Shown in pieces: positions 39,677 through 54,484 of a DNA stretch of 64,000 bases. This stretch comes from Desulfobacteraceae bacterium Eth-SRB1. GTDB lineage: Bacteria; Desulfobacterota; Desulfobacteria; Desulfobacterales; ETH-SRB1. The notes under the pieces are model-generated. The model saw only the letters and a program-made list of their open reading frames with translations, ran no database searches and had not been told where the DNA came from. Position numbers and translations under genes: made by a program. Positions within the stretch are counted from its first letter, which is position 1. The number at the start of each line of letters is the position of its first letter. The stretch lies in contig RPGP01000001.1 of NCBI GenBank assembly GCA_004193555.1, forward strand, positions 400,156 through 464,155, given 5' to 3'.

Positions 39677-39757
39677 GCATAACGCCGCAAATCACCGGCT
39701 GCCAAAAGGTGCAGCGCGAAGCGGTGTAGCTTTTGGCAGTCCGAGTGAATTTGCATT
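39677..39757. other. attC site, interrupted by a group IIC intron
   Basis: GCATAAC ... CACCGGCTGCCAAAAGGTG ... GCTTTTGGCAGTCCGAGTG AATTTGCATT, then the intron. The remainder of the right core (TTAGC) follows the intron at 42419. Confidence 0.85.
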
Positions 39758-39891
39758 GTGTACGCCCGGCATGGGCGTGAACTTATAGGGTGAAAGTCCC
39801 TTATACGTGAACCCTGCTGATATTTTGATATATTAGCAAAAGTATTAGCCGAAGGCAAGGGCGTTTCCGTGAGGAAGGGTCTGAAGGGCTG

Positions 39892-41619
39892 GTCGAGTAG
39901 CCCAAAGGAACTTCCCCTAAAGGCTCTCACAGAACCGTACGTGAAGCTCTCGCTTCATACGGCTCTTATCATTCAATCTTATGCGCATACCCGATTCCAG
40001 TGCGCCAAGAGTTTTCGATTCCTTCTTCTGAAGAAATTAACTCTTTTAGCCGCCTGTATCAATGTCTTGAGTTTCTTGTACTTACGCTTTGCCCAACGGC
40101 TGAGTTTCATATCAAAATGGAACAGAACATTGGCAATTGCACCTCGTCCAAACCTTCCATAATATTCCATCCAACCACGGAGCTTGCTTTGGCTAAAGCG
40201 GATGATATCCTTTATGTCACCCTGCTGCCATTTTAGCCAAGTCCACCCGTTGATTTCAGTTCTTATCCGTTTTGCCGCTTTTTGGCTTATTGCCGGTAGA
40301 AAACAAACCAGTTGTTTACCTTGACGGGTTTTAATCAGTCTGGGTCTAAATGTAAATCCCAAAAAGTCAAAACTTATTCTGGCATAATCTGCCTTGTGTT
40401 TCCAGCTTTTGCAGTAGATGATTTTGGTTTTCTCCGGGTGTAGCTCTAAGCCGCATTGTTTAAACCTTTCTGTGAGTACAGTTTGGAGTTCTACGGCTTC
40501 CTGTTCGGTTCTACAGTGGCAGACTATATCGTCTGCGTATCTTTCAAACTGTATCCCTTTCCAGTGCTTTCCTACCCAGATGTCAAAGCTATAGTGCAGG
40601 AACAGGTTTGCCAAAAGAGGGCTGATAACGCCACCTTGTGGTGTGCCTTGCGTTCGCTGTTCTATACGACCGTCTGGATGCTGTACCGGTGCTTGTAACC
40701 ACCTTCTGATATACAGCCGTTGCCAAGATTCTTTGACGTGTTTTTCTATTGCACGCATCAGCAGGTCATGGCCTATGGCATCAAAGAAGCCTTTTATGTC
40801 CATGTCCAGTACCCAGGCACGCTGCCAGCTTCTCGCCCGTACTTGTTCTAACGCTTGATGCGCTGATTTGTTGGGGCGATAGCCGTAGGAATCAGGATGG
40901 AAGTGTTGCTCCAGTTCAGGCTCTATCTCCATCTTTACTGCCATTTGGGCTATCCTGTCAGCCACGGTGGGTATTCCTAATGGACGTGTTCCACCATCGG
41001 CTTTGGGAATTTCTACCCGTTTGACCGGCTGCGGAAAGTAACTGCCTGATGACATTCGATTCCAAAGCTTATAAAGGTTGTTTGTGAGGTCTTCCTCAAA
41101 GTCTTTGAGACTTTGTTTGTCCACCCCTCCACTGCCTTTATTCGCTTTGACTCGTTTGTACGCCTCATATATCAGGCGTTTCGGTATGTTGTAAGGTCTT
41201 GTCTGTTCCAATGGGTTCCTCCCATAACTGGTTGACTCATCAAACCAGACTGAATGATTTAGCCCCTTCGCTCCATTTCCATTACAGAAACTTCTTCGCT
41301 ACTACGGGCTAATCCGTCCCTGTGTTCTGCATCGGTACTCTCGCCTTGTGGGGTTTCCACTTGTGCTTCTCCCTTAACATCAGAACGACAGGTTCTCATG
41401 TTCCGTGTTAAAGCCTGTATTGAGTTCATGCCCCCTCTATGCCGACTGCCGCTTTGCCTGTTATGCCAGTTCACATCAAAGCTTATCCCAAACTTACGCT
41501 CGGAGTTTGGTTTTGACAGTATCGTTCTCCATTTCGACACCTCATCAGGGGTTCACTTTCGTTCATCTCCTCAATACCCACCTGACAATTCTCTGATTGC
41601 CTTTTCCCTAATCGCTCAC
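39892..41619 (-). mobile_element. group II intron D, nested in intron C in opposite orientation
   Basis: On the minus strand it opens GTGAGCGATTAGGG at 41619, carries an intact RT, and has domain V GAGCCGTATGAAGCGAGAGC TTCACGTACGGTTC at about 39927-39965. It ends about 39892 (CTACTCGAC). It splits domain I of intron C. Confidence 0.75.
39979..41211 (-). CDS. ltrA: group II intron reverse transcriptase/maturase (intact)
   Basis: 410 aa. ANKGSGGVDKQSL, ADGGTRPLGIPTVADRIAQM, VLDMDIKGFFDAIGHDLLM, GTPQGGVISPLLANLFLHY, the catalytic FERYADDIVCH, and ISFDFLGFTFRPR are the RT blocks in order; the maturase-like C terminus is KLRGWMEYYGRFGRGAI. It lacks an HNH endonuclease. It is the only intact RT in the window, so intron D may still be mobile and could act on the others in trans. 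Confidence 0.95.
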   Translation of the reverse strand: MEQTRPYNIPKRLIYEAYKRVKANKGSGGVDKQSLKDFEEDLTNNLYKLWNRMSSGSYFPQPVKRVEIPKADGGTRPLGIPTVADRIAQMAVKMEIEPELEQHFHPDSYGYRPNKSAHQALEQVRARSWQRAWVLDMDIKGFFDAIGHDLLMRAIEKHVKESWQRLYIRRWLQAPVQHPDGRIEQRTQGTPQGGVISPLLANLFLHYSFDIWVGKHWKGIQFERYADDIVCHCRTEQEAVELQTVLTERFKQCGLELHPEKTKIIYCKSWKHKADYARISFDFLGFTFRPRLIKTRQGKQLVCFLPAISQKAAKRIRTEINGWTWLKWQQGDIKDIIRFSQSKLRGWMEYYGRFGRGAIANVLFHFDMKLSRWAKRKYKKLKTLIQAAKRVNFFRRRNRKLLAHWNRVCA

Positions 41620-42418
41620 GACAGTTGCTCTTAACAAATGCCGCATAGGGCGGTTTGATTCCAGCTTCTGGTCGCCGAAACCGAGAGACCTACTCTCATC
41701 TTTAATACAGCACGAAAGGCTTACGCCTCTCTTCATGACACACGAGCAAAGCGGAAGGCGAGAGCGACTGAAAGGAGCGGCAACCCGGAGTGCAAAGCTA
41801 TGAGCCGACGAACAGAAATAGCATACAAGGCCAAGTCCCCGGGTGAGTTAGCACAACATAACGAAGCCCAGCGGTTCAGGGGATATGGTAAGTGCTGCAG
41901 TTGTGTAGCGAAAGTTCACGTTCTTATCCGGGGAGATCTGTCCGGCATGCGGTTCTTTGATGTTTATATTACCATTCGGTGAAACTGCCGGTAGGGGCGA
42001 TCGGCTCACCAAGTCCCGGCGATATCATGAGAGCATCCCGCCTGGTATCGAGAAACGAAACAAAGAGGAGCGCATACAGGATCGGTAAACATGACGCATC
42101 AGAAAGCAGCGCTTTATGGGGCAACTCATAAGGTGATCGGACAGAAGTCAGCAGAGGCCATAGTAGCCAAACGCCAGGGGTAATGCCCGGGACAGGGTGA
42201 AGGGCCAAACCTTTGGGAGCAGGGAGGAGCTGGTCATACTCGAAAAGGCGATGAACCCGACAGGGGGAGCCAATAATATTCGGCGTGTTGACAGTAGCCA
42301 GCCTTGGAATACAGCCAGAAGTCGGGCGGTATTTTAAAACTCTCGGGGAACCGCATAGTGCGGACCCGCTTGCTATGTGGTGTGGGGAGGGGGAGAGAAA
42401 AAACTCCCCCTTACCCGA

Positions 42419-43119
42419 TTAGCAAATCTGCCATTGCTCATTCTCATGATACGTAAATTGAATGTCTCCGATTTGTATTACCGCTCCCGGAGCATTTGGA
42501 AAGGTTACAGCTTTAATTCTCTTTTTCACTTCAGAAATTGTCATATCAGTAGTCACCTTACATAAATCATTTAATTCTTTTTTTGTGTATGCTTTCCTTT
42601 TCCAATTCTCATTTGAAACAGGTAAATCTTTGTTTTCATGTATTAACGACATAGTGTCATAAAAAGTTGTTAATATGTAAGAGTAGCATCTTTGCGTCAA
42701 CGAAAAGACAGTATCTGATGTAAAAAGAGGAAATCGTTTAACAGTAATAAGTTGTCCGGTATCAACCTTTGGATTCATGTGATGACAAGTTATGCCAAAT
42801 GTATTTTCTCCATGATAGATAGCAAAGTTTGTACATCCAATACCTGGATATTCAGGTGGCCCAGGATGAAAATTAATACTTGCCTTGTTCGCTCTGTTCA
42901 GTAAATATTCTGGGATGATCCAAGGAGATAAATAAGAGATAATATAGTCCCCTTTCCACCAACCTATATCCTCAGGAAGTTTGTCACCTCTTTTCCCAAG
43001 CAAAATCTCATGATCTGGAAAATGTAATTCGACAAATTTTATTGCACATTCGCAGTAAAAATCGTTCTTTTTACCAATAAATAGTATACTTGGTATTCTG
43101 TTCTGTTCTGTTCTGTCAT
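42419..43119 (-). CDS. formyltransferase-family enzyme with a 5-bp repeat that puts its start out of frame
   Basis: INFHPGPPEYPGIGC, GITCHHMNPKVDTGQLI and the Asn/His/Asp-type pattern fit the Fmt/PurN-like formyltransferase fold. The frame is open from SILFIGKKNDFYCECAIKF, but the only good start, ATG at 43119 with GAGGT upstream, is in another frame. (TTCTG)4 at 43096-43115 lies between; with three or six units the frames join. A TTG at 43003 would give only 194 aa. The stop TAA comes from the attC core. The role may be sugar or amino-acid formylation (inference). Confidence 0.7.
43096..43115. repeat. pentanucleotide repeat (TTCTG)4 at the start of the formyltransferase gene
   Basis: Four perfect tandem units directly after the ATG at 43119-43117 (minus). 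A unit change alters the frame of the whole gene. Confidence 0.9.
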
Positions 43120-43165
43120 AATTTACCTCAATTTTGTTTTGTCAAGTGATTATTGGTTAATGCTT

Positions 43166-43288
43166 GCCCAAAGCTGAGTGGTCGGGGGCTTTATGCCAAC
43201 ACACTCTGCATAATTAAAATTTTACTTAAAGCCGAAATTTTTAAGAGCGGCTCAGTAGCCCCCGATCCACTCCAGCGGTTTGTTAGCT
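43166..43288. other. attC site
   Basis: GCCCAAA (mutated core) ... GCTGAGTGGTCGGGGGCT ... AGCCCCCGATCCACTCCAGC ... GTTAGCT at 43282. Confidence 0.8.
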
Positions 43289-43304
43289 GATGATTTTTAT
43301 TACG

Positions 43305-44270: not shown

Positions 44271-44316
44271 TTTATTGAGCTCCAAAAAATAAAAGTTTTT
44301 TAGGCAAGGCTCATGC

Positions 44317-44442
44317 AGCTAACCGTAAAGCTCACCGGCACCAAAAGCCAATGATGATCTGGCAAAAGCAACGTTTTGCTCTGAAATGGCAAAAGCGAAA
44401 AACGTGCCGGCTTTTGGTGTCGGGTGGAGCGCATGGTTAGCA
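44317..44442. other. attC site
   Basis: AGCTAACCGTAAAGCTCACC GGCACCAAAAGCC ... GGCTTTTGGTGTCGGGTGGA ... GTTAGCA. It gives the stop codon of the upstream gene. Confidence 0.88.
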
Positions 44443-46163: not shown

Positions 46164-46302
46164 GGCTAACGGCCTGGCATGAGGGGCTGGGAAAAGCTTG
46201 CTACAGCCTTGGAAATAATTAAAAAGATGACTTTTAGACGGCCTGCGTAAAAGCGAAAAAGTCGCCCGCTTTTCACAGTCCGCCTCTATGCTTTTGTTGG
46301 GC
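46164..46302. other. attC site
   Basis: GGCTAACGGCCTGGCATGAG GGGCTGGGAAAAGC ... CCCGCTTTTCACAGTCCGCC ... GTTGGGC. A near-twin of 14338-14475. Confidence 0.9.
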
Positions 46303-46307
46303 AACTG

Positions 46308-47067
46308 CTATTTTTTAGCCACCAATACATTATTCTCTGGAAGGCTATCTTCTATCCATAAGTACGCATTATTCTTGTACAACTTAACGTCTGTGAAACC
46401 AGCTTCTTTCAACTTCTTTACCCAGTGTCTTTTACTTCTAAGCCTTTTATTAATGTGGCCATCTTTGTCTATTTGCACATTTAAGCCATCTATGTAGCCA
46501 AAATGACCGCCTATAATAAATATCCCACCTTTTTTTTAGAATATTTCCTATAGCGTTAATAGTATTTTCCCACTCAGAATCTTCAACTATATGAAACATA
46601 ACACCAACGGCATTCACGAGGTCATAATCATTATTTAGTTTACCTATAACTTCAAGAGCTTTTCCTTGATGAATTTCTATGCTGTCATTCTTAGAATATT
46701 TCTTTTTGAGAAAATTGAACGACAAAAGAGAAATGTCCATTCCCGTAATTTTGAGCGGCTCTATTGAATTATAGAAATCAATCCAATGACCTGAGCCAGA
46801 GCCTATGTCCATTATATTGGATTGATTGATATGTATTCCGTTGTTTCGCAGATGTTTTAAAATCTGCAATTCCATCGATGCGTAGTGGTACTTAGCAGTA
46901 ATAATACTTTTTTTTTGTGAAATCGTTTGCCTATCCGAAACACCTTCCGTATAGAATGAAGCATCCCACCATTTCGTGTTGTCATACTTTCGACCTTTCT
47001 TTCGAATGTAAGTATTTAAAAACCCAAAGGCTATTTTTGCCCTTTTCCACAGGAATTGTTTAATCAT
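46308..47067 (-). pseudogene. class I SAM methyltransferase broken at an A8 run
   Basis: From ATG 47067: IMDIGSGSGHWIDFY (motif I), ITGMDISLLSF, DLVNAVGVMFHIVEDSEWEN and IGNILKK. The frame then breaks at AAAAAAAA (T run 46530-46537). One A fewer continues as GGIFIIGGHFGYIDGLNVQI, KRHWVKKLKEAGFTDVKLY and NNVLVAKK to the stop at 46308. The full protein would be about 252 aa. The run could be a slippage or phase-variation site, a mutation or a read error. Confidence 0.8.
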
Positions 47068-49951: not shown

Positions 49952-51235
49952 ATGAAAAAAAATAATTCAAATAGTTTTAAAGAATTTCTTATTAATGATA
50001 AAAATATACCTAATAAAAATATAATATTTTATCAAGCATGGGTAAATAAATTCTTATCATTTTATCAAAAGAATTTGAAAGCGGTTAAATATGATAATAT
50101 TAAGGCGTTTCTTGATAAACTGGAATCAGATGGTACAGAAGACTGGCAGATCAGGCAGGCTTACAGGTCTATAAAATTTTTTCTGGAAGACTTTATGCGC
50201 TTGACTATTGATTTTAGTGAAAACCCGGAGGATGAATCTTCCGGTAAACCTGTGAAAAATCCTGCGACATGGAAGGATGCTTTTTCAAAATTTATTAATG
50301 AAATGCGTTTTCAACACCTTGCATATAGCACGGAAAAAACTTACAGATCATGGATCAGGCGTTTTGTTGGATTCTGTAATAATGCCCCCCCGGGAACAAT
50401 TCAGTCATCTCATGTGAAAAAATTCCTTGTTCATCTGGCTGTGGAAGGAAACGTCAGTTCATCCACTCAAAACCAGGCATTTAATGCTTTACTGTTTTTA
50501 TTCAGATATGTTCTTGAAAAAGAGTTTGATGTAAGTGACAATGTCATTCGGGCAAAAAAAAGCAGTAGAATTCCGGTTGTTTTCAGCAGAAAAGAGATAA
50601 AGAAGCTTTTTAAGCATTATCCAGAACAATATCTACTTCATGTAAAGCTGATTTATGGTTGCGGTCTTCGCATAACAGAATGTATCAGACTTCGTGTAAA
50701 AGATCTCGATTTTGAGAACAAATCGTTGATTGTACGTTTTGGTAAAGGAAACAAGGACAGGGTAACAACTTTGCCTGAAATACTGCATCAGCAATTAAAA
50801 AACCACCTTCAGGAAGTAAAAAAAATCCATGAATTGGATCTGAACGCCGGAAATGGTTCTGTTTATATGCCTATGGCATTAGCAAAAAAATTTCCCAATG
50901 CTTCAAAAGAGTGGGCATGGCAGTATGTATTTCCATCAAAAAATTTAAGCCTTGATCCACGGGAAAAGATAATAAGAAGGCACCATATTACTTCACGCGC
51001 GTTGCAGAACTCTATGAGCAAGGCCTTAAAAAAGTCAGGTATTCCCAAAAAAGCCACTATTCATACACTAAGGCACAGCTTTGCCACCCATCTTCTTCAA
51101 GATGGCTATGATATTCGAACCGTTCAGGAACAGTTGGGACATAAAAACGTTCAAACCACTATGATATATTTACATGTATTGAAAAACCTGGAGGGTAAGG
51201 TGATCAGCCCTCTGGAAAAACTGCAAACAGCATAG
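49952..51235 (+). CDS. intI: integron integrase
   Basis: 427 aa. The C-terminal part has the catalytic Arg (GCGLRITECIRLRVKDL), HTLRHSFATHLLQDGYDIRT, LGHKNVQTTMIY and SPLEKL. It also has the IntI-specific insert (VYMPMALAKKFPNASKEW AWQYVFPSKN, RRHHITSRALQ). The N terminus is longer than the usual ~330 aa: residues 15-90 and 110-190 look like two core-binding domains in tandem. It recombines attI and attC to add or remove cassettes. Complete. No strong ribosome site is visible. Confidence 0.95.
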   Translation: MKKNNSNSFKEFLINDKNIPNKNIIFYQAWVNKFLSFYQKNLKAVKYDNIKAFLDKLESDGTEDWQIRQAYRSIKFFLEDFMRLTIDFSENPEDESSGKPVKNPATWKDAFSKFINEMRFQHLAYSTEKTYRSWIRRFVGFCNNAPPGTIQSSHVKKFLVHLAVEGNVSSSTQNQAFNALLFLFRYVLEKEFDVSDNVIRAKKSSRIPVVFSRKEIKKLFKHYPEQYLLHVKLIYGCGLRITECIRLRVKDLDFENKSLIVRFGKGNKDRVTTLPEILHQQLKNHLQEVKKIHELDLNAGNGSVYMPMALAKKFPNASKEWAWQYVFPSKNLSLDPREKIIRRHHITSRALQNSMSKALKKSGIPKKATIHTLRHSFATHLLQDGYDIRTVQEQLGHKNVQTTMIYLHVLKNLEGKVISPLEKLQTA

Positions 51236-51949: not shown

Positions 51950-53188
51950 TTACCCGCCTAAGACTACTTTCTGATGGGCCAGATCCAGGTGGTTTACCAT
52001 GGCCTTTATTCTCAAGCGAGCTTCACGATCACCTTTTTCTGCCAGAATTTTTGCCATTTCTTGCCGCATTTCGGTCTCCGGCGGTTTCCAGGCATATGCT
52101 TTGGCGTGAAAATGGATCAGTTTTTCAGACATGGTTTCCCATTCTTTGCTTGATAGATCGTGCAGGCGATAGATATTCAAATGGCGCCAGGACTCAGCGT
52201 AATTTTCTTCAAAATAGGAAAATTCCTGTTCATTGCGAAGATATACACGGTCATAGTCTTCCCCCTGAACCCGCATAAAGAAGTCGTCGGTAAAGGCGAA
52301 AATGGGATAGAGTCCGGCCGGAGGAGAGGCAGACGAAAAGAATTGATTCAAAATAGTGTAGCTTTTCCGGCGCACGTTGATGCGTAGCTGGGCAATGGAT
52401 TCACCTTCATCAAACAGCAGAACCCAGCCTTTAAACCCTGTTTTTTGAAACATGGCTGACAGGCCGCATATTGCCTTAAAATATGGTTCCCATCCTTTGC
52501 AGACCAGGGATGCGTCTTTGTAAAATGGAACCTGTCGGTACTTCATGGCATGACGGAGACGAAACACAGGCAAGCTGTTTCCGTTCAGGGCATTGGCGAG
52601 GAGCCAGGGAAACTCTCGGGGCCGGAATGTGGTATGCTTTTTTAAGCCTTTTTGCCGGTTGGAAAGCGGTATGTTATCCTGCGCCATGGCCGTTAAAATG
52701 GCTTTGAAAAAATGAGGCATGGATTCCGGGATGATGTCCAGCGGCCCGACGCTGTTATTTTTCCAGGATATTTTTTGTTTGCCGCTCAGGTCTTTCCACC
52801 ATTTTACCAGGGATGACTCGCTATCCGGAAAAGAAATTTGACTCACCAGGGCATGGTAAACCTGCCGGAAGTCATAAAACGGAATTTCCCTTGGATCAAG
52901 GTTGATCTGACTGGTAACGAACCCCTGTGCCAGAGCCCGTTGACGAATATAGGTAAGACTATGGGATTTACCCTGGCCATAGGCGCCGCAGACACAAAGG
53001 TGGGTGGATTCATCTTTCTCCAGGGTTTTAACGCCATGGTCAAATATACTGTTTAATTGCGCTTCATGGGCAGTTAACAGCCTGACACCAAAGGGATCGA
53101 AAAGCCCCTCCCGCAAGCGTTCCACCGCCCTTCTGAGTTTGAAATTGCCGGTGCTTTCCAGTAGCTGGATAAAATTGGCCTTATCCAT
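51950..53188 (-). CDS. BrxC/BrxD-like P-loop ATPase (second)
   Basis: 412 aa. The N-terminal RRAVERLREGLFDPFGVRLL leads to Walker A GAYGQGKSH at residues 68-76 and Walker B GWVLLFDEGESIAQL near 255. This is the layout of the DUF2791/BREX-type ATPases. It is 3 bp after the first ATPase gene. The pair presumably forms a hetero-oligomeric DNA-loading motor. It ends next to the integron boundary. Family-level calls only; substrate unknown. Confidence 0.78.
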   Translation of the reverse strand: MDKANFIQLLESTGNFKLRRAVERLREGLFDPFGVRLLTAHEAQLNSIFDHGVKTLEKDESTHLCVCGAYGQGKSHSLTYIRQRALAQGFVTSQINLDPREIPFYDFRQVYHALVSQISFPDSESSLVKWWKDLSGKQKISWKNNSVGPLDIIPESMPHFFKAILTAMAQDNIPLSNRQKGLKKHTTFRPREFPWLLANALNGNSLPVFRLRHAMKYRQVPFYKDASLVCKGWEPYFKAICGLSAMFQKTGFKGWVLLFDEGESIAQLRINVRRKSYTILNQFFSSASPPAGLYPIFAFTDDFFMRVQGEDYDRVYLRNEQEFSYFEENYAESWRHLNIYRLHDLSSKEWETMSEKLIHFHAKAYAWKPPETEMRQEMAKILAEKGDREARLRIKAMVNHLDLAHQKVVLGG

Positions 53189-53191
53189 TTG

Positions 53192-54484
53192 TTACTTATC
53201 CCAACTGGGCTGCAGTTGTTCCATCTTCTCTTGTTCCATTTCCTGCTGACTGGAGACGATATGCTCGGTAAGATCAAGTGTCTCTGCCGGATCTTTGCCC
53301 TGTTCGGCCATATCCAGAATTCGAATGACCTGTTTGACAAAAAGCCGTACCTCGCTCAAGAGCCCCATCTTCTTCTGATTTTTACAGATATCCTCAAGAA
53401 GCTTGTCCGGCACAGACTCTGCAGCGTTCCAGCGATAAGATATCTCGTGAATACGACGCAATGACTGCCCCAGATCGACCAACTCGCCCGATTTCAACGG
53501 TGTTCGATGCAGATCGATCAAAACCCCGCGATAATTCAGACGCTTCTGCTGACCGATGGACCGGACACGGCTCCATAACGCATCGTAGGATTTAAATCCC
53601 TTTTCAGACAGCAATACGTCCGGGATGATGGAAAAAAAGATATGGAAATACTCAGACTGTTCGGTATTGTCTATCAGCAGCCGCACGTTCTCGTAAGCTG
53701 CGTTGCGCACTGAGGCGGACTGGGCGATGACCGTCTCCAGTTCATCTAACAGCAGAATAAATCCTTTATAGTTCAGATAACGTAGAAAGGCATTCAGGGA
53801 GTTGAGCATCTGCTTGCTGTTGGCCTTGTTCACTACTTCAAAAATTCCGAAGGGTTTAAGTTCCCGTTTGGTTGCTTTGCCTGCCTCGAACCAGTGGAAA
53901 ATGATCTCCCTGTTTGTGATGCGATCTTCTTTATGTTCTCCTTCCATCAATGGCAAAAAACGATTATGCGCCAGAGCCACAAGCGCATTGGCAAAATTTA
54001 CGTTCATGCCCGGCAGATTACGTAAGGTTTCGGCCAGATCAGCAATTTGCTCTGTTGAAGGAGGAGTGTCATTTTGAACCAGACTGTCTAACCATTGGCT
54101 CAGAAGGTTTCGAATTCCAATGCCCTCAAAACGACCGCGAAGCTGACGCGTAATAGATTGATAGACGGCTTCGAACTTGTGAATAGGTACTTCCCGCGTC
54201 AACACGACAAAAGAAACGGCAAACCCCTGTTGCAACGCAAGATGACGAATTATTGACATAAAATGAGTCTTGCCGTCACCATAATCACCACTGAGAAAGC
54301 GGACTTTGGCCCCGCCTTCGGCAATATAATTTTTCAGATCATCCTCAATAAAAGTGAGCCAGTTATCGCGGCCGACAGTAAAAAAAGGCACATAGTCGGC
54401 GGGCACGCTGCCTTTTCGAAGTTCTTCAATAATTGATCTGGCCTGAAATGGTTCTAACTGATCAATCTCTTTCACAGGTATCAT
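53192..54484 (-). CDS. BrxD-like P-loop ATPase (first)
   Basis: 430 aa. ARSIIEELRKGSVPADYV and FFTVGRDNWLTFIEDDL are typical N-terminal BrxD/DUF2791 segments; Walker A GDYGDGKTH at 66-74 and Walker B GFILLLDELETVIAQSASVR. The C-terminal tail is acidic and ends EQEKMEQLQPSWDK. The ATG overlaps the previous stop (ATGA). In BREX and related systems such ATPases work with large nucleases or helicases. Confidence 0.8.
   Translation of the reverse strand: MIPVKEIDQLEPFQARSIIEELRKGSVPADYVPFFTVGRDNWLTFIEDDLKNYIAEGGAKVRFLSGDYGDGKTHFMSIIRHLALQQGFAVSFVVLTREVPIHKFEAVYQSITRQLRGRFEGIGIRNLLSQWLDSLVQNDTPPSTEQIADLAETLRNLPGMNVNFANALVALAHNRFLPLMEGEHKEDRITNREIIFHWFEAGKATKRELKPFGIFEVVNKANSKQMLNSLNAFLRYLNYKGFILLLDELETVIAQSASVRNAAYENVRLLIDNTEQSEYFHIFFSIIPDVLLSEKGFKSYDALWSRVRSIGQQKRLNYRGVLIDLHRTPLKSGELVDLGQSLRRIHEISYRWNAAESVPDKLLEDICKNQKKMGLLSEVRLFVKQVIRILDMAEQGKDPAETLDLTEHIVSSQQEMEQEKMEQLQPSWDK

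Follow-up and report, generated by a model that had tools for sequence, protein, structure and literature searches.

A pentanucleotide repeat behind the start codon of an integron cassette formyltransferase gene as a probable translational switch

In a 64,000-nucleotide stretch of the genome of Desulfobacteraceae bacterium Eth-SRB1 (the window), a predicted formyltransferase frame that is otherwise intact is preceded by a well-placed start codon that does not read into it. Between the two lies a short tandem repeat with a five-base unit. This arrangement raises the question of whether the gene is broken, is expressed in some unconventional way, or carries a switch that happens to be off.

Start codon, repeat, and reading frames

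On the minus strand, the order is TTGAGGTAAATT-ATG-(ACAGA)4-ATACCAAGT..., followed by the formyltransferase frame from 43096 to 42419; the repeat corresponds to (TTCTG)4 on the plus strand. The features of the gene start are as follows.

43139..43147, minus strand: ACTTGACAA motif, common to the leaders of related repeat-started genes
43125..43129, minus strand: GAGGT ribosome-binding site, read from the sequence
43117..43119, minus strand: ATG start codon, not in register with the enzyme frame at four units (frame translation)
43097..43116, minus strand: (ACAGA)4 pentanucleotide repeat directly 3' of the ATG, with one extra A at 43096
42419..43096, minus strand: predicted sugar N-formyltransferase frame, 225 codons, intact (Formyl_trans_N match and fold)
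43001..43003, minus strand: TTG, the earliest potential start within the enzyme frame, not considered the true start

The repeat (4.2 copies with 100% matches in TRF) has a unit length not divisible by three and sits directly behind the start codon, and the number of units determines whether the ATG joins the long frame. With four units, the ATG frame stops after 26 codons. Translation at 2 to 8 units indicated that 3 or 6 units connect the ATG with the long frame, whereas 4 do not. A preliminary description had placed the repeat right after the only well-placed ATG, with its GAGGT site, and had proposed the same frame logic. Reading and translating the sequence bear out both statements, and the description was correct in every checkable detail. 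Its assertion that the gene is currently off holds for the present assembly only.

Four-unit pentamer arrays are rare in this setting. None arose when 300 copies of the window were generated with a third-order Markov model, and 400 kb sampled from the host genome lacked them as well, the repeats detected there being limited to 7- and 8-base arrays, homopolymers, and a single TA run. Likewise, within approximately 370 kb around integron integrases of the host and related genomes, four-unit pentamers were limited to that of the window and two in related cassettes, and the other arrays searched had no repeats of a different unit close to gene starts. Apart from this, the host genome (C40 and C1 samples: L085, L095, L098, and L099) contains many 7- and 8-base tandem arrays, apparently intergenic and up to about 12 units long, with tetramer arrays, like pentamers, absent from the 400-kb sample.

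We propose that translation of the formyltransferase cassette is probably switched by slipped-strand changes in the repeat directly behind its start. As five bases are not a multiple of three, gain or loss of a unit would shift the frame. ACAGA repeats are free of stops in every frame (TEQNR residues), and the ribosome would thus always cross the repeat. One length in three would join the enzyme frame, with 3, 6, and 9 units corresponding to the on state and the present 4 to the off state. A repeat that is open in all three frames, follows the only good start, and interrupts glycan-type enzymes that are otherwise intact is, on sequence evidence, the anatomy of translational phase variation, and we have moderate to good confidence in the switch overall. 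Change of the unit number within a population, the exact substrate, and the effect on the surface are components that we infer. Four to six pentamer units are short for a fast switch, and its rate may be low.

Constitutive expression despite the frame, either through −1 slippage on GTAAAAAG or through initiation at a nonstandard or TTG start, would reduce the repeat to a hydrophilic N-terminal tail. There are features that would permit this. A run of five A's (minus strand ..GGTAAAAAGAAC..) is positioned such that ribosomes slipping by −1 would pass from the ATG frame into the enzyme frame, the slip product would have a hydrophobic stretch in the place of strand 1, and the TTG at 43003 opens a 194-codon frame with no ATG, GTG, or TTG upstream of it in the long frame. 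However, read in the ATG frame, the five A's do not form a standard slippery heptamer. Furthermore, the 31 codons upstream of the TTG are 71% identical to those of the closest relative, with changes falling mostly in third positions (9, 5, and 17 of 31 by codon position), and they contain the first strand of the fold (residues 4 to 9 in the structure model). In most full-length relatives, the start lies within about 12 codons of this strand. The conservation of this stretch as protein argues that the enzyme has been selected from the ATG region and not from the TTG, which we rejected as a start. Constitutive expression is thus considered very unlikely.

Predicted enzyme and integron setting

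The long frame matches Formyl_trans_N, and its predicted fold (structure model pLDDT, 94.5) matches the sugar N-formyltransferases Rv3404c, WbkC, and VioF, with TM-scores of about 0.72 to 0.77 by query length. Identity to these enzymes is only 16 to 20%, but the catalytic residues are held in common, and Asn75, His77, and Asp112 are invariant in 15 relatives. Based on the modeled fold and the catalytic Asn, His, and Asp, the predicted product is a sugar N-formyltransferase. Unlike Rv3404c, WbkC, and VioF, the enzyme of the window has relatives in nonulosonic-acid operons, where they replace an acetyltransferase step. Those in G175 and G429 have the LegC aminotransferase on one side and NeuB on the other, and others adjoin NeuB or NeuC. 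Judged by gene order, this position corresponds to the 4-amino acyltransferase step of nonulosonic-acid synthesis, and the neighbors of the homologues point to a nonulosonic-acid-type amino sugar as the probable substrate class. The host genome has a nonulosonic-acid locus at C40:179-197 kb (LegB, LegC-like, NeuB-like, NeuD, and PseF-like), on whose product the cassette enzyme may act. In the on state, the enzyme would formylate a nucleotide-linked amino sugar of the legionaminic or pseudaminic acid type at an amino group, and this formylation would alter a surface glycan.

A member of the same enzyme family is encoded on a small plasmid, pLO2 of Vibrio anguillarum serovar O2 (L027). It lacks a repeat and is 53% identical to a repeat-bearing gene on a Hydrogenophaga contig (L026, see below).

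The formyltransferase gene belongs to an array of single genes that is read away from an integron integrase. The features of the array are as follows.

49952..51235, plus strand: integron integrase (TIGR02249, 4.3e-131), divergent from the cassette array
44316..44442, minus strand: attC-like hairpin of the neighboring cassette (z-score, −4.35)
43155..43290, minus strand: attC-like hairpin between the preceding cassette and the formyltransferase gene, with a degenerate right core (z-score, −4.5)
39885..42418, strand not assigned: group II intron sequence with a reverse transcriptase at 39979-41211, limits approximate
39678..39760, minus strand: attC-like hairpin downstream, past the group II intron sequence (z-score, −4.4)

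Strong attC-like hairpins flank the gene on both sides; the right core of the upstream one is degenerate, and group II intron sequence separates the gene from the downstream one. A simple core-box scan for attC sites did not discriminate. Due to the degenerate upstream core and the undiscriminating scan, folding and visual inspection are the basis of the attC calls. Judged by these features, the formyltransferase gene is a predicted integron cassette in the array beside the integrase. As it lies approximately 7 kb from the integrase, its expression is uncertain.

Several properties of the array and its host favor another explanation, namely, that no switch exists and that the gene is a decaying pseudogene or the units were miscounted in assembly. 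Cassettes located at a distance from the integron promoter decay, and the length of a repeat can be misjudged. Of the five integron integrase loci in the host genome, two contain stops. In addition, a methyltransferase cassette of the same array (46290-47067, minus strand) goes out of frame at a poly-A8 run (46530-46537), and its frame resumes as GGIFIIGGHFGYIDG... in another frame. This cassette may represent a second switch, decay, or an assembly indel, and it leaves room for assembly indels or decay in the array. Nevertheless, the sole break in the 225-codon formyltransferase gene sits exactly in the rare repeat, and gain or loss of a whole five-base unit is not a usual assembly error. Together with the recurrence of the repeat described below, this makes decay or miscounting an unlikely explanation.

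Additional observations concern the surroundings of the cassette. The integrase comprises 427 amino acids, about 100 of which form an additional SAM-like domain at the N terminus, and integrases of comparable length occur in several related genomes. The region at 39885-42418 contains Rfam group II intron pieces on both strands, with domains accompanied by the reverse transcriptase on the minus strand and pieces at 41754-41922 and 42110-42205 on the plus strand, as if two introns of opposite direction were nested or lay side by side next to the cassette. At 51950-54484 (minus strand) lies a tandem pair of genes whose similarity to the BREX ATP-binding protein BrxD does not reach the cutoff for that protein.

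Recurrence of the repeat and its leader

An ATG followed within 12 bases by three ACAGA units was sought in overlapping samples of 58 relatives, 389 genomes of the order, and 395 genomes of the phylum. Both among the 389 genomes of the order and in the samples as a whole, at least four units just after an ATG were found at only three places, all of them integron cassettes. The three genes are different and unrelated: the gene of the window (four units, off), a PseH-like acetyltransferase gene (five units, on), and a methyltransferase gene (six units, off). The acetyltransferase gene (G003:C78) starts in frame and is divergent from an integron integrase. The methyltransferase gene (G546:C12) is out of frame, with GTTAGGC upstream, an attC-like site after the gene (z-score, −2.2), and an integrase-like N-terminal fragment on the other side; no homologues of it were detected in 94 relatives or in viral contigs. 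Matches with three units in G041, G473, G550, G346, and G392 were, as far as read, not frame-switched cassette genes.

That two other genes, both intact, start with five and six units of the same repeat argues against decay or miscounting. One in-frame gene and two out-of-frame genes match free slippage, and this distribution likewise speaks against constitutive expression. A different repeat occupies the equivalent place in a relative of the enzyme itself. A 38% identical formyltransferase gene on a contig of a Hydrogenophaga metagenome-assembled genome (L026) carries about 10 CA units directly behind its ATG and is out of frame, which is also difficult to reconcile with decay or miscounting at the window's repeat. 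This gene came from genome contigs; a search of viral contigs, plasmids, and phages for formyltransferase relatives yielded no repeat-bearing copy. The on/off switch proposed in the preliminary description thus gains sequence support from the same repeat after the ATG of two unrelated cassette genes and from an out-of-frame repeat of another unit in a formyltransferase relative.

The leaders of the window gene and of the G003 and G546 genes all contain ACTTGACAA 20 to 21 bases upstream of the ATG. A search with the leader and two units added one more genome, G451, in which two near-identical copies of a NeuD-family acetyltransferase gene start in frame with ATGATTT(ACAGA)2. This NeuD-like gene is surrounded by insertion sequences and has a frameshift downstream of the repeat, a break that could be counted in favor of decay. 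A DNA match to the leader in G001:C62 lacked the repeat. We also considered ACTTGACAA as a −35 box of an ordinary promoter and rejected it, as none of the four leaders showed, by eye, a matching −10 element at 16 to 18 bases.

Other cassettes of the order that encode glycan-type enzymes would accordingly share one beginning, with ACTTGACAA, about 20 bases, ATG, and (ACAGA)n. We tentatively suggest, at somewhat less than even probability, that this is a portable phase-variation start module placed on different glycan-decorating enzymes in the integrons of the order, where cassette shuffling and slipped-strand switching together would diversify surface sugars. Alternatively, leader and repeat could reflect a common ancestry of the 5' ends of cassettes, for instance through recombination within the leader, and could serve translation efficiency, cassette formation, or some other purpose instead of switching. 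The near-constant distance of ACTTGACAA in four genes is unnecessary for slippage and would fit such ancestry. However, two of the three genes with at least four units are out of frame, which would be intolerable for a simple translation aid, and the CA repeat of the Hydrogenophaga gene has a different unit and lacks such a leader. We regard this alternative as very unlikely.

Comparison with known phase-variable genes

Repeat-driven phase-variable glycan genes include the tetranucleotide genes of Haemophilus influenzae (PMC2651432). Phase-variable formyltransferases have been described with poly-G tracts (PMC6321876, PMC2823697), namely, lgrA in the Campylobacter phasome, at G8-10, together with a Campylobacter fetus formyltransferase (PMC6321876), and HCAN_0643 of Helicobacter canadensis (PMC2823697). 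As in the gene of the window, a simple repeat in the coding region of a surface-sugar enzyme shifts the frame at these loci. In contrast, they are chromosomal genes with mono- or tetranucleotide tracts, whereas the window gene has a pentamer directly behind the ATG of a predicted integron cassette, common to unrelated genes and accompanied by a leader motif. With the sedentary chromosomal integron of Vibrio cholerae, the window shares an integrase, attC-like hairpins, and unidirectional single-gene cassettes. In the V. cholerae superintegron, slippage was reported in the integrase gene, not in cassette genes (PMC11023631).

No report of repeat-switched integron cassettes was found in the open-access PubMed Central literature. 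Integron cassettes here seem to come with a slippage on/off switch of their own, and the new part would be a set of glycan-enzyme cassettes that start with the repeat and have a leader in common. Bacteria generate variety separately through integrons and through repeat-driven contingency loci, and cassettes with their own slippage switch would join the two. If this is true, an enzyme gained by cassette capture could then be toggled on and off without being lost, and out-of-frame cassettes annotated as pseudogenes may be switched-off genes.

ACAGA repeats of at least four units are also common in viral contigs (114 stretches), in other contexts, and were not counted as support. On the phage contigs L190, L127, and L183, (ACAGA)12, (ACAGA)8, and (ACAGA)13 arrays, respectively, break or border reading frames. 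The frames on either side of the L190 array resemble a DNA cytosine methyltransferase, which suggests that phage methylases may be switched by this pentamer as well.
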